This document shows, piece after piece, positions 3,087-11,437 of a DNA stretch of 64,000 bases (positions are counted from its first letter, which is position 1; each line of letters opens with the position of its first letter). The stretch is from Streptacidiphilus neutrinimicus. GTDB taxonomy: Bacteria > Actinomycetota > Actinomycetes > Streptomycetales > Streptomycetaceae. The stretch lies in assembly GCF_000787815.1 (NCBI RefSeq), contig NZ_BBPO01000042.1, positions 5,092 through 69,091 on the forward strand. Direction: 5' to 3'. Position numbers and translations under genes: made by a program. Below the pieces are notes generated by a model. That model saw only the letters and a list, made by a program, of their open reading frames with translations, ran no database searches and was not told the DNA's origin.

Positions 3087-3650
3087 GTGAACACCAAGCG
3101 CATCCGCCGCGTATCCGCCGCCCTCACCGTCGCCGCGGCAGCCGCGGCGATCGCGCTCGGGCCGGGGGCCGGCGCCGCCAACGCGTCGACGTCCTACGGC
3201 TCGACGCCGTACTGGATCGCGCCGGTCTACGACTCGCAGGAGATCGCGGTCGCCGACTCCTCCGGCTCCGTGGGCGCGCGCCTGATCCAGTGGTACAACG
3301 ACGGCGGCAACGAGCAGAAGTGGTACTTCGACGGCGTCTACAACGCCCAGGGCCAGTACCAGGGCTTCGATCTGCGCAACAAGAACAGCGGGATGTGCAT
3401 GGACACCGACGGCAACGCCGGCGACACGCTCTTCCAGACGTACTGCAACGAGGCCGACACCGGCCAGATCTTCACCAACTACGCCAACTTCAACGAGTTC
3501 GGCGTCACCGTCAGCTACACGTTCATCAACAAGGAGACCGGGCTGGCACTCGACGTGAGCGGCTACAGCTACGGCGAGGGCGCCAACCTCGACCTGTGGT
3601 ACCAGAACGGCCAGGCCAACCAGGCCTTCTTCCTGACCCAGACGTCCTGA
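3087..3650 (+). CDS. Secreted ricin-type beta-trefoil lectin domain protein
   Basis: 187-residue exported protein. GTG start preceded by a strong AGCAGGGGGG ribosome site. Residues 1-33 form a Sec signal peptide (arginines, long alanine-rich core, cleavage near ANA-ST). The rest is a beta-trefoil lectin-like fold with the repeated QW-type features expected of ricin B repeats (QKWYF, LRNKNSGMCMDTDG, INKETGLALDVSG, NQAFFL). It probably binds carbohydrate outside the cell. No catalytic domain is attached. It is monocistronic, followed at once by a strong hairpin, and divergent from the SARP regulator, which is a candidate activator by position only. Confidence 0.8.
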   Translation: MNTKRIRRVSAALTVAAAAAAIALGPGAGAANASTSYGSTPYWIAPVYDSQEIAVADSSGSVGARLIQWYNDGGNEQKWYFDGVYNAQGQYQGFDLRNKNSGMCMDTDGNAGDTLFQTYCNEADTGQIFTNYANFNEFGVTVSYTFINKETGLALDVSGYSYGEGANLDLWYQNGQANQAFFLTQTS

Positions 3651-3713: not shown

Positions 3714-3945
3714 TTCGGCGGGCGCCGCGGCGGCCAGGCACCAGCTCACCCACGTCGGCCCGCGCCTGATCGACCGGTCCGCCCGTCCCTCGGACAGCCG
3801 CTGAGCCAGACGACGGCCGCACCGCGTAGCGTGCGTGACGCCGGCACAGCACAAACGTCCGACAACCGCCGGCGCACTTTCTGTTGTTCGCGCGCCAAGG
3901 TTCGGTCTCCGAAAGCAGGAGACCCAACCGGCGGAGAGGACGGAC

Positions 3946-5823
3946 GTGGCACGGCAGCACGAGCGCAACCAGGCACAGGACGAGGCCCTGATCGAGGAGG
4001 CACGCGCAGGGAACCGGCAGGCCGTCGAGCTCCTGCTCGCCAAGTCCCTCCCACTGGTCTACAACATCGCCGGCCGCGCCCTGGACGGGCACCAGGACGT
4101 CGACGACGTCGTCCAGGACTGCCTGCTGCGCATCGTGCGCGGGCTGCCCGCCCTCCACAGTCCGCACGCCTACCGATCATGGATGGTGGCGATCGTCGTG
4201 CGACAGGTCCGCGACTGGATGCGCGCGCAGCAGCAGATCCGCACCCGGCAGGTCGACATCGACCACGCCGAAACCCTCACCGACCCGGCCTCGGACTTCA
4301 CCGCGCTGACGATCCTGCAGCTCGGCCTGGACGACCAGCGCCGTGAACTGGCCGAGGCCACACGCTGGCTGGACCCGGACGACCGTGACCTCCTGGCCCT
4401 GTGGTGGCTGGAGGAGACCGGCGACCTCACCCGCGCCGACCTGGCCGCGGCGCTTGAGGTGTCCTCCCGCCACGCCGCCGTGCGCGTCCAGCGCATGAAA
4501 GCGCAGATCACCACCGCACGTCAGGTGGTTCGCGCCCTGTCCGCGTCATGCTGCCCCGAGCTGGCCGACCTCACCGCGCCCTGGGACGCCACCCCGAGCC
4601 CGCTGTGGCGCAAGCGCCTGGCCCGCCACATCCGCGACTGCGACCGCTGCGCGGTGGCCGAGGGCCCGCTCGTCCCCGCCGAGCACCTCCTCGCCGGCCT
4701 GCCGCTCCTGGCTCCGCCGCCCGGCCTGCACCGGGCCGTCGTCCACGCCTCCACCCACGGCACGCCCCACACCGTCACCGGCCCCCGACCGGGCCGGAGC
4801 CGGGGCGACAGGCGCACGCGGAGAAGGGCCGCGCGCCACCGCGGTGCGACCGTCTCCGTCGGAGCGGCTGCCGCCGCAGCGGCCCTGCTCGCGGTCGTCC
4901 TCGTCGCAGACCACCGCGCCGCACCGGCCACTCCCGTCGCCGCCGCGACGACCCCCGGCCCCGCCCCGAGCAGCCCCGCACCGCCCTCCGCCGCGGCTCC
5001 GACGCCCAGCTCCGGCGCCCACCCCCGATCGGCCCTTCCCGCCACCACGCCGACGCCGACGCCGTCCACGGCCCCGTCCATCACCCCTGATGGGAAGAAG
5101 GGCGTCGCCGTCTGGACCTTCTCCGGCGCCGACCAGGCCCTCACCCAGGCCCACCCCGCCTGGTACTACACCTGGTCCGCCCAGAACCCCGGGCTCAGCG
5201 GCCGCGGCGGACCCGGCTTCGTCCCGATGATCTGGGGAGCGGACTCGGTCACCCCGCAGGCCCTGGCCCAGGCCGGCCAAGCGGGACCCTACCTGCTGGG
5301 CTTCAACGAACCGGACATGGCCAGCCAGGCGAACATGACGCCCGACCAGGCCCTCGCCCTGTGGCCGAAGCTCATGGACACCGCGGCGATCCTCGGCAGC
5401 CCGGCCGTCGCCTACGGCGGCGACACCCCGGGCGGCTGGCTGGACCGCTTCATGACCGGCGTCCAGCAGCACGGCTACCGTGTCGACTTCATCGCCCTGC
5501 ACTGGTACGGCGGCGACTTCACCACCCCCGACGCCGTCGCACAACTGCGCGCCTACCTCGAGGCCGTCCACGCCCGCTACCACAAGCCGATCTGGCTCAC
5601 CGAGTTCGCCCTGACCGACTTCTCCCAGGGCACCCCCCGCTACCCCACCGACGTCCAGCAGGCCGCCTTCCTGAGCGCCGCCGTCTCGATGCTCGACACG
5701 CTGCCGTACGTCCAGCGCTTTGCCTGGTTCGGCCTGGGAACCGACCAGTCCGGCCCCGGCACCACCTTGTTCCGCGCGGGCGCCCTCACCCCTGAGGGCC
5801 AGGCCTTCCTGTCCACTCCGTGA
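3946..5823 (+). CDS. Sigma-70/ECF sigma factor fused to zinc-finger anti-sigma motif, one TM helix and extracytoplasmic glycosidase-like domain
   Basis: 625 residues from a GTG at 3946 (ribosome site GGAGAGGA just upstream). An in-frame start 37 codons earlier is possible but the extra residues look non-coding. Sigma region 2 (about 10-100, with DVDDVVQDCLLRI), sigma region 4 (about 135-195), then a zinc-binding anti-sigma-like motif H228-x3-C232-x2-C235, a basic stretch, one membrane helix (about 302-321), a Pro/Thr/Ser-rich linker (about 325-382) and a TIM-barrel glycosyl-hydrolase catalytic-core domain of the Asl1 type (about 385-620) with GFNEPD (E455), ALHWYG and WLTEFALTDF (E553) as acid/base and nucleophile candidates. 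The order puts sigma in the cytoplasm and hydrolase outside. Inferred role: cell-wall or glycan sensing coupled directly to transcription, presumably with release by proteolysis. Confidence 0.88.
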   Translation: MARQHERNQAQDEALIEEARAGNRQAVELLLAKSLPLVYNIAGRALDGHQDVDDVVQDCLLRIVRGLPALHSPHAYRSWMVAIVVRQVRDWMRAQQQIRTRQVDIDHAETLTDPASDFTALTILQLGLDDQRRELAEATRWLDPDDRDLLALWWLEETGDLTRADLAAALEVSSRHAAVRVQRMKAQITTARQVVRALSASCCPELADLTAPWDATPSPLWRKRLARHIRDCDRCAVAEGPLVPAEHLLAGLPLLAPPPGLHRAVVHASTHGTPHTVTGPRPGRSRGDRRTRRRAARHRGATVSVGAAAAAAALLAVVLVADHRAAPATPVAAATTPGPAPSSPAPPSAAAPTPSSGAHPRSALPATTPTPTPSTAPSITPDGKKGVAVWTFSGADQALTQAHPAWYYTWSAQNPGLSGRGGPGFVPMIWGADSVTPQALAQAGQAGPYLLGFNEPDMASQANMTPDQALALWPKLMDTAAILGSPAVAYGGDTPGGWLDRFMTGVQQHGYRVDFIALHWYGGDFTTPDAVAQLRAYLEAVHARYHKPIWLTEFALTDFSQGTPRYPTDVQQAAFLSAAVSMLDTLPYVQRFAWFGLGTDQSGPGTTLFRAGALTPEGQAFLSTP

Positions 5824-6015: not shown

Positions 6016-6642
6016 ATGCCCGTACGCCGCGAGGTCCGCTACACGTTCGCCCGCCAGCCGCGCCTGGTCCGCGTCGCCTGCCGGGTCGTCGCGCAGCGCG
6101 TCCACGCGTGGGGCGCCCGGCTCGACGAGCAGACCGGCAGCACCCTTCGGCTCCTGATCAGCGAGATCGTCACCAACGCGCTCCGGCACACGGCGACACC
6201 GTTCATCCGCCTTCGTCTGAGCGTCGCCGACGCCAGCCTGCTGGTGTCCGTGCAGGACGACTCGCCGATCCTGCCCGTCGTGACCGCCCCCGACCCCGAG
6301 GCCTGGGAGAGCGAACACGGCCGCGGACTGCTGATCGTCGCCGCCCTCGCCGACCTGCACGGGTGGCGCCGCGCCGGCCGCGGCAAGTGCGTCTGGTTCC
6401 AACTCGCCCTGCCCGAGGCCCAGCGCGCGCACCCGCCCACAGGCCGCGCCCAGCAGCACAAGGCTGCCACCCCGACGTCCGTCTGCAGCCGCGCTCACCG
6501 GCCGGACGGACCCCCGCACGCCAGGGGCTCCTCCCGCCCCGCGGCCTCGTGCCGGCGTGCTCCGCGACCGAGGGCGGCGCAGGTTCGGTCCCTGCGCTGC
6601 CCTCGGCCCGCCCGCTTCTGGCGAGAAGGGCGAGGCTCGTAG
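6016..6642 (+). CDS. RsbW-like serine/threonine-protein kinase / anti-sigma ATP-binding protein
   Basis: 208 residues; ATG preceded by GGAGG. The first 140 residues are a HATPase_c domain of the small actinobacterial anti-sigma kind: N box SEIVTNALRH at about 49-58, G1-like VQDDSP, and G2-like HGRGLLIVAAL. Such proteins bind ATP and either phosphorylate anti-anti-sigma (STAS) proteins or hold sigma factors. The last 65 residues are low-complexity and probably disordered. No partner is adjacent; the STAS protein at 34600-34995 is a possible but unproven partner. It stands alone between a terminator and a small membrane gene. Confidence 0.8.
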   Translation: MPVRREVRYTFARQPRLVRVACRVVAQRVHAWGARLDEQTGSTLRLLISEIVTNALRHTATPFIRLRLSVADASLLVSVQDDSPILPVVTAPDPEAWESEHGRGLLIVAALADLHGWRRAGRGKCVWFQLALPEAQRAHPPTGRAQQHKAATPTSVCSRAHRPDGPPHARGSSRPAASCRRAPRPRAAQVRSLRCPRPARFWREGRGS

Positions 6643-9721: not shown

Positions 9722-10081
9722 GCCCCTGCCTGTGCCGACCATCCGACGATCCGTCGGTGGACGGTATCCGACCGCGTCCACCGAAGAACCGGGAGCCCGC
9801 ATGCCCCTCGCCAGAACTGCCGTCCGCACCGCCCCGTGCTCGGCGGCTCGCCCTGACCGTGTTCGGCCCCTTCGCCCCCTGAGCCCCCGGGGGGCGTCGG
9901 CGACCGTGCCCGCGCTCGTCGTCGGGCTGGTCATGCCGTCCTGGGCGAGCCAATACTGAGAGTTCGCCACCAATCCGACCAGGATCCTCCGCTTGTGGCC
10001 AAAGTCGCTGGCGGGACCCGGTAGCGTATGCGCATTCAGGTCGCTGCCATGGACGCGACCAGCGCACGAGGGGGTCCGCCC
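9722..10081. other. Intergenic region upstream of the secreted lipase
   Basis: 360 bp. A plus frame from the ATG at 9801 to 9959 has weak coding character (alanine/valine-rich end) and could be a remnant. I could not assign it, and no convincing operator or hairpin stands out. Confidence 0.3.
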
Positions 10082-11437
10082 ATGTCTACTTCGCGAATAG
10101 TCCGCAGTCGTTTGCTGGTCCGGGCGGCCGGCACTCTCGGGGCGGTCGCCATCGGCCTGGGCGCGACGGTTTCCCCCGCCGCCGCGAGCACTCCGCACCA
10201 CGGCACCGAGCCCGGCAACGCCGCCCCCGACGCCCCGTTCGACGACACGGCCGTCGCGAAGGCCCAGGCCGCCGCGAACGCCGCCGCCCACGGCGGACAC
10301 CTCGAGACGCGGGCCCTGCCGAAGTCCCGCGCGGCGCCCACCGGTCAGAACGACTCGGGGGTCACGCCCGCCATCCCGGCCCCGACCGGTCCCTACCAGG
10401 TCGGCACGGTCAACCTGCACCTCGTCGACAGGACCCGGTACGACCCCTGGGTGCCGACCTACCCCCGTCGCGAGCTGATGGTCCAGCTCTGGTACCCGGC
10501 CACCCAGACCTCCGGGCACGCGCTCGCGCCGTGGCTGCAGTCCGAGGCCGCCGACAGCTTCCTGAGCAGCTGGAACGTCTGGCCCGGCTCGATGGACGTC
10601 CCCACCACCGCCGGGCACCTGGGCGCGCCGGTGGACCCCAAGGCCGGCAAGCTGCCGGTGCTGCTCTACTCGACCGGCCTCCACTCGGACCGCTCGCAGG
10701 GCACCGCGCTCGCGGAGGACATGGCCAGCCGCGGCTACCTGGTCGTCATGATCGACAGCACCCATGAGGCCAACGAGGTGCAGTTCCCCGGCCCCCGCCT
10801 GGAGACGGCCACCCCCGCCAGCTCCAAGTACACGCTGACCGTCCGCGCCGCCGACGCCAAGTTCGTCGTCAACGAGCTCGGCCTGATCGCCGGCGGCAAG
10901 GACCCCGACGTCGACGGCGCCGCGCTCCCCTCGGGGCTGTCCGGCAACGTGGACATGTCGCGCATCGGCATGTTCGGCTGGTCGTACGGCGGCCCGACGG
11001 TCCTGGACTCGATGACGCTCGACCCGCGGATCGCCGCCGGCGCGGACCTCGACGGCCAGCTCTACGGTCCGCAGGACGCGGAGAACCTGAACCGCCCCTT
11101 CCTGCTCTTCGGCGCGTCGTACCACGACCGCAGGGAGGACAGCAGCTGGGCCAGCGTCTGGTCGCACCTGACGGGGCCCAAGTACGAGCTGAAGCTGGCC
11201 GGCACCGAGCACCTGTCGTTCAGCGACTACGAGACGCTGTTCTCCCAGGCGGGCGAGGAGATGGGCCTGACCCCCGGCCAGGTCCAGCAGGACATCGGCA
11301 CCCTGGCCCCGAGCCGGGCCATCTACATCATGCGCACCTACCTGGCCGCCTACTTCGACACGGTCCTGCACATCAAGACCAACCCGCTCATGAGCGGGCC
11401 GTCCAAGAGCTTCCCCGAGGTCTCGTTCATCCGCTGA
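10082..11437 (+). CDS. Secreted alpha/beta hydrolase, PAF-acetylhydrolase (isoform II)-like lipase
   Basis: 451 residues from ATG at 10082, after a GAGGGGG ribosome site. Signal peptide at residues 1-36 (ending PAAAS). The body matches the platelet-activating-factor acetylhydrolase-like family: oxyanion region VLLYSTGLHSDRSQG, nucleophile elbow FGWSYGG, Asp in AGADLDGQLYG and His in GTEHLSFSDY, which completes a Ser-Asp-His triad. It likely hydrolyses phospholipid or other short acyl esters outside the cell. Monocistronic, closed by a strong hairpin. Confidence 0.9.
   Translation: MSTSRIVRSRLLVRAAGTLGAVAIGLGATVSPAAASTPHHGTEPGNAAPDAPFDDTAVAKAQAAANAAAHGGHLETRALPKSRAAPTGQNDSGVTPAIPAPTGPYQVGTVNLHLVDRTRYDPWVPTYPRRELMVQLWYPATQTSGHALAPWLQSEAADSFLSSWNVWPGSMDVPTTAGHLGAPVDPKAGKLPVLLYSTGLHSDRSQGTALAEDMASRGYLVVMIDSTHEANEVQFPGPRLETATPASSKYTLTVRAADAKFVVNELGLIAGGKDPDVDGAALPSGLSGNVDMSRIGMFGWSYGGPTVLDSMTLDPRIAAGADLDGQLYGPQDAENLNRPFLLFGASYHDRREDSSWASVWSHLTGPKYELKLAGTEHLSFSDYETLFSQAGEEMGLTPGQVQQDIGTLAPSRAIYIMRTYLAAYFDTVLHIKTNPLMSGPSKSFPEVSFIR

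Follow-up and report, generated by a model that had tools for sequence, protein, structure and literature searches.

Sigma factors of group ECF53, and also of ECF52 and ECF48, combine a sigma part and a zinc-finger region with a transmembrane (TM) helix and a large extension outside the cell (PMC8999054, PMC10766802). Some ECF52 and ECF53 proteins are predicted to end in a glycosyl hydrolase or carbohydrate-binding domain; a 2024 review states that experimental validation is missing (PMC10766802). SCO4117 of Streptomyces coelicolor, assigned to ECF52, has this general layout, and a proteolytic release has been proposed for it (PMC5826349). In Clostridium thermocellum, RsgI is cleaved in or near its TM helix by RseP and then by ClpXP, which frees the sigma factor (PMC12203970). 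The gene described here was originally predicted to join a sigma factor to an outside glycosidase, with the remark that the class might already be known, around ECF52/53. This remark agrees with the literature (PMC8999054, PMC10766802): as fused sigma factors with glycosidase ends had been predicted in reviews, the protein belongs to a known kind.

The gene lies in a 64,000-nucleotide stretch of Streptacidiphilus neutrinimicus DNA (the window) and is a single frame of 625 residues at 3946-5823 on the forward strand, with a GTG start, a ribosome-binding site and no internal stop. Its parts follow in the order sigma regions 2 and 4, zinc motif, TM helix, Pro/Thr linker, GH128 domain (Table 1). 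We saw the sigma-GH128 fusion unbroken in 13 named relatives and in 29 of 103 surveyed family members, carriers being found in Streptacidiphilus, Actinacidiphila and some Streptomyces. The one long frame of the original prediction thus stands; with no internal stop and with the fusion kept in relatives, two separate proteins at this place are ruled out.

Table 1. Features of the transmembrane sigma factor gene, its upstream region and its product (window positions)
Feature	Position	Strand	Basis
Predicted autoregulatory ECF promoter, TTCTGTTGTTC-N14-GGTCTCC	3879..3910	+	PWM, conservation upstream of orthologues
-35 core GTTGT	3883	+	
-10 core GTCTCC	3905-3910	+	
Ribosome-binding site GGAGAGG	3933..3939	+	Sequence
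Transmembrane sigma factor gene with GH128 ectodomain, 625 aa	3946..5823 (including stop codon)	+	ORF and HMM
Sigma region 2, residues 10-96	3973..4233	+	Pfam PF04542; VIA Z 12-13 to sigmaE region 2 structures
Sigma region 4 helix-turn-helix, residues 141-192	4366..4521	+	TIGR02937 spans 26-189; model aligns with sigmaE to 193
Anti-sigma-like zinc motif region, residues 197-258, C203-x24-H228-x3-C232-x2-C235	4534..4719	+	Motif conservation
Predicted single transmembrane helix, Ala-rich, residues 303-321	4852..4908	+	Hydropathy and flanking charge, all complete orthologues
Pro/Thr/Ser linker, residues 324-381	4915..5088	+	Sequence not conserved; pLDDT under 50
GH128 subgroup I domain (predicted beta-1,3-glucanase), residues 382-625	5089..5820	+	HMM, structure comparison
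Predicted acid/base E455	5308-5310	+	Aligns with E102 of AmGH128_I
Predicted nucleophile E553	5602-5604	+	Aligns with E199 of AmGH128_I

Several neighbouring genes in the window, all on the forward strand, may be recorded. Just 5′ of the sigma gene is a gene for a secreted ricin-type beta-trefoil lectin (3087-3650; PF14200, E = 2e-23); a scan of both strands of the window showed no copy of the sigma promoter before it. A HATPase_c_2 gene for an anti-sigma-kinase-like ATPase (6016-6642) lies 3′ of the sigma gene, and a secreted alpha/beta-hydrolase resembling PAF-acetylhydrolases and PETases is encoded at 10028-11437. Loci of the Actinacidiphila type (L005, L006, L011-L013, L015 and L016) have a conserved gene group 5′ of the sigma gene: an ABC permease, a GH20 hexosaminidase and a secreted CBM3 protein, part of which weakly resembles GH16.

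Both sigma regions named in the original prediction were recovered. The protein matched Sigma-70 region 2 of Pfam with E = 2e-10 and scored 57.4 bits with the Sigma70-ECF model TIGR02937 (curated cut-off 42.9; E = 1.3e-15); having regions 2 and 4 only, and a score above the curated cut-off, it is an ECF sigma factor. Structure prediction of the whole protein, based on 14 sequences, did poorly (mean pLDDT 57.5); for this reason the sigma-zinc part was predicted again from 51 sequences, with a value of 86.4. Residues 5-193 of the predicted model could be aligned with sigmaE (Z 13.2). The fold comparison spans residues 6-199 only, so that the zinc region is outside its reach.

Behind the sigma part, the residues follow the pattern of a ZAS motif, C/H-x24-25-H-x3-C-x2-C. 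The HxxxCxxC motif noticed originally (H228, C232 and C235) is joined by C203, and all four residues are unchanged in 51 of 51 diverse family members. An HMM search of each segment had been proposed along with the original prediction; it gave matches for sigma region 2, ECF and GH128, and left the zinc region below zf-HC2 significance (matches in 14 of the 51 members, best E = 0.12; no match in the window sequence itself). From its motif, the region is a putative built-in anti-sigma domain. The single TM helix also agrees with expectation: residues 303-321 are the best hydrophobic segment of the protein (mean hydropathy 2.49). With seven K/R among the 15 residues preceding it versus one among the 15 following, the segment fits the predicted topology, N-terminus in the cytoplasm and C-terminus outside. 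The Pro/Thr linker is where it was anticipated, and its mean identity is 31% versus 68% for the GH128 domain.

What had been described as a glycosyl-hydrolase core with intact-looking catalytic glutamates is, more exactly, a GH128 domain of subgroup I, as judged by sequence, fold and catalytic glutamates. It matched PF11790 (GH128/Glyco_hydro_cc) with E = 2e-50, and Foldseek placed it with GH128 subgroup I at E of about 1e-17; its closest solved relative is the endo-beta-1,3-glucanase AmGH128_I (53% identity; 6uaq, E = 2e-80). The residues E455 and E553 occupy the positions that the crystallographers mutated in AmGH128_I (E102A and E199A/Q); they are invariant in alignment A1, and each of the 29 GH128 forms surveyed contains the motifs FNEPD and WLTE[FY]. 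Full conservation of this pair suggests that catalysis has been retained. The domain may serve as receptor, as enzyme or as both; full enzymatic activity, if it has it, might mean that it is no receptor. Solved members of subgroup I are endo-beta-1,3-glucanases, and the promoter of the gene is common to thaumatin-like genes (see below); both suggest that the probable ligand is beta-1,3-glucan, a polymer of fungal walls.

By description, the protein fits ECF53 (reference WP_030276194.1), an actinobacterial group whose C-terminal extension holds a zinc finger, one or two TM helices and a long outside part (PMC8999054). Membership in ECF52 is ruled out: the ectodomain is GH128 and not NPCBM, and the sigma part is unlike that of an ECF52-type member. 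We saw no NPCBM match in the window genome, and blastp of the window protein against an ECF52-type protein from a relative (L258, composed of sigma, zinc motif, TM helix and NPCBM) produced no significant alignment.

A long frame with the sigma-zinc module is present in 122 of 150 sampled Streptomycetaceae genomes; the GH128 sigma gene is present in 46 of the 150. The 103 family members that we fetched differ in their ectodomains: CAP is the commonest (58 members), GH128 was found in 29, an FHVASGGG-type domain in five and AbfB in one, the rest being cut, frame-disturbed or unclassified under the motif rule used. Two members reside in the window genome, the GH128 one and a CAP one (L110, G000:C160:47500-50700). 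In a tree built from the sigma-zinc part, proteins with GH128 formed one large supported clade and one separate pair, indicating that the cytoplasmic chassis stayed constant while the ectodomain was swapped a few times.

The two rarest ectodomains deserve a separate description. One, of ∼230 residues with the signature FHVASGGG...GAQQMWQNEYYYLDGTVTLH, sits on the same sigma chassis in L111, L124, L137, L181 and L185; a Pfam search of the L111 form returned no match. The other is the AbfB (arabinofuranosidase B) domain of L159 (G114; E = 6.5e-44).

One could suppose that the Cys/His motif is itself the true sensor, a redox or metal switch as in RsrA, and that the ectodomain is mere cargo. The invariance of C203, H228, C232 and C235 would suit such a switch, as would their spacing, which is like that of redox-responsive ZAS domains such as RsrA. 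Still, the type of ectodomain tracks the phylogeny of the sigma part and also the predicted thaumatin regulon described below, which is unexpected for cargo, and we regard this explanation as very improbable.

Alignment of upstream regions revealed a motif consisting of TTYYGTTRTYC, about 14 bases and (C/G)GTCTCC; its family form is GTTRT-N17-GTCTCC, with an ECF-like spacing of -35 and -10 elements. The motif was found 5′ of 76 of the 103 family members, at a median distance of 73 bases ahead of the start (0.08 expected from shuffled upstream regions); the reversed pattern had no occurrence upstream of the same 103 members. A motif that recurs before the factor's own gene across a family usually points to sigma autoregulation. 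On both strands of the window the site at 3879-3910 is the only one with a PWM score of 8 or more, and in the window genome it is the only intergenic, correctly placed match, other pattern matches being mostly intragenic on the opposite strand or having no gene start downstream. The motif was weak in the four main-clade Streptomyces (g14) GH128 orthologues tested. The two bases at the head of the -10 element also differ: GH128 members mostly have CG, CAP members GG or GA, which may hold the paralogues apart.

The -10 box of the window gene is overlapped by a perfect 7-bp inverted repeat, GGTCTCC-GAAAGCA-GGAGACC, at 3904-3924. Among the surveyed members it was present in three only: the window gene, its closest relative and L082 (as CGTCTCC...GGAGACG). 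It is a possible operator.

A stringent form of the promoter pattern matched 15 sites when run over 13 whole genomes; 12 of them precede the sigma gene, and the other three lie a short way before thaumatin-family genes (reversed-pattern control, 0). The 46 genomes with a GH128 sigma gene contained 46 such sites, of which 31 precede the sigma gene, 14 a thaumatin-like gene and one a CAP-type paralogue, with no site before any other gene (reversed control, one site). The 31 sites at sigma genes are there by construction, because the motif was derived from sigma genes; the 14 at thaumatin-like genes are not, and they make up 14 of the 15 sites outside the sigma gene itself. Most complete thaumatin-like genes of the 13 genomes have the promoter upstream or follow in tandem one that does. 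A looser pattern added, in these 13 genomes, mostly intragenic matches, plus further thaumatin-like genes and one paralogue. At seven loci (L237-L243) a thaumatin-like gene adjoins the sigma gene, mostly in divergent orientation, and each gene has its own copy of the promoter. When all 150 genomes were considered, 23 of the 24 having the promoter-linked class of thaumatin-like gene also had the GH128 sigma gene (Fisher p = 2e-13, uncorrected for kinship); a second, weaker-scoring thaumatin-like class was found in genomes lacking the GH128 sigma gene.

At their N-terminus the thaumatin-like proteins have a hydrophobic anchor, and they also contain a linker of low complexity. They match plant PR-5 structures with E of about 1e-45. 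Demonstrated beta-glucanases as well as plant defence proteins are among the GH152/thaumatin-like proteins (PMC11800479). In the literature consulted we found no paper describing a link between thaumatin-like genes and a sigma factor in Streptomyces. The window genome and that of its nearest relative contain neither a thaumatin gene nor a second promoter copy; self-regulation alone is therefore predicted for the window copy. In some Streptomyces (L246, L253 and L254) a divergent promoter copy faces a short frame that resembles only the N-terminus of a thaumatin-like protein; such frames are perhaps remnants of thaumatin-like genes.

We consider it probable, though well short of certain, that the protein is a one-protein transducer: the GH128 domain would sense beta-1,3-glucan, and release would free a sigma factor that amplifies its own synthesis and that of thaumatin-like proteins. 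Outside, the GH128 domain would dock on the glucan, most plausibly that of a fungal wall, and perhaps cut it; inside, the zinc motif region, as a built-in anti-sigma domain, would bar regions 2 and 4 from RNA polymerase. By analogy with RsgI and IutY, glucan binding could provoke cleavage of the protein within the TM helix or close to it and so set the sigma part free; no protease target site was identified. The freed sigma factor would read GTTRT-N17-GTCTCC, its own gene first (a positive feedback) and, where present, the genes for membrane-anchored thaumatin-like proteins (PF00314/GH152), whose products would attack or bind the same polymer, beta-1,3-glucan.

The same domains could serve feeding: the ectodomain would be mainly a tethered glucanase, the fused sigma factor would do no more than couple its synthesis to substrate, and the thaumatin-like proteins would act as auxiliary glucanases. 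Both catalytic glutamates are intact, as such a role would ask, and some Actinacidiphila loci adjoin genes for a GH20 hexosaminidase, ABC permeases and a CBM3/GH16-like secreted protein. However, the promoter is absent from any gene for a glucan transporter or beta-glucosidase, few members of the defence-type thaumatin-like family are proven enzymes, and feeding needs no positive feedback on the sensor. We think this nutritional role unlikely.

The original prediction spoke of a one-protein wall sensor. The one-protein transmembrane sigma factor has been borne out; the sense of a sensor for the cell's own wall has not, given GH128 subgroup I and a promoter shared with thaumatin-like genes. Were the ectodomain to watch the cell's own surface, the sigma factor would answer envelope stress and run wall or developmental genes, as proposed for SCO4117 (ECF52), a protein of similar layout with effects on development and antibiotics (PMC5826349); CAP domains with no link to glucan, moreover, are borne by many paralogues that share the chassis. 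Yet the fold of GH128 subgroup I targets beta-1,3-glucan, not peptidoglycan; the promoter is confined to sigma and thaumatin-like genes and occurs at no developmental or wall gene; and the ECF52-type protein L258 has no similarity to the window protein. Own-wall sensing thus seems to us a somewhat poorer candidate still than the nutritional role.

The glucan-sensing transducer, if true, would explain how bacteria of the Streptomyces type could detect fungi directly and respond with plant-type proteins, and would offer a modular one-gene sensor for engineering. One could go further and speculate that it is a one-protein counterpart of innate immunity, in which a glucanase-fold receptor for fungal beta-1,3-glucan switches on PR-5-type antifungals and amplifies itself, and in which the chassis swaps ectodomains (GH128, CAP, AbfB and one unnamed) for other ligands; to this broader view, antifungal purpose included, we give slightly less than an even chance. 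The sequence yields a small, concrete circuit that lends itself to testing, made up of a promoter, a target family of thaumatin-like proteins and, as likely ligand, beta-1,3-glucan.

In comparison with known systems, the protein shares its layout with ECF53, ECF52 and ECF48 members, for which we found in the literature consulted no regulon with a shared promoter, no GH128 domain and no thaumatin link. Judged from sequence, the GH128 assignment with intact catalytic residues, the family-wide promoter and the predicted thaumatin regulon appear to be new; we did not find them in the literature consulted. SCO4117 differs in its NPCBM-type outside domain and in its proposed promoter motif. AmGH128_I of Amycolatopsis mediterranei has the same catalytic pair as the ectodomain, but is a free enzyme with neither sigma part nor TM helix. 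IutY of Pseudomonas putida, too, is a single chain of sigma factor and transmembrane anti-sigma, with Prc and RseP bringing about its release (PMC8999054), although it serves cell-surface signalling by the siderophore aerobactin and has no glycosidase domain. RsgI and SigI of C. thermocellum are two separate proteins, whereas the window protein is a single chain; they differ further in an unrelated anti-sigma domain, an autocleavage step and plant-wall substrates. The likeness lies in the logic: there, an outside carbohydrate domain senses a polysaccharide, and the freed sigma factor activates glycosidase genes (PMC12203970).
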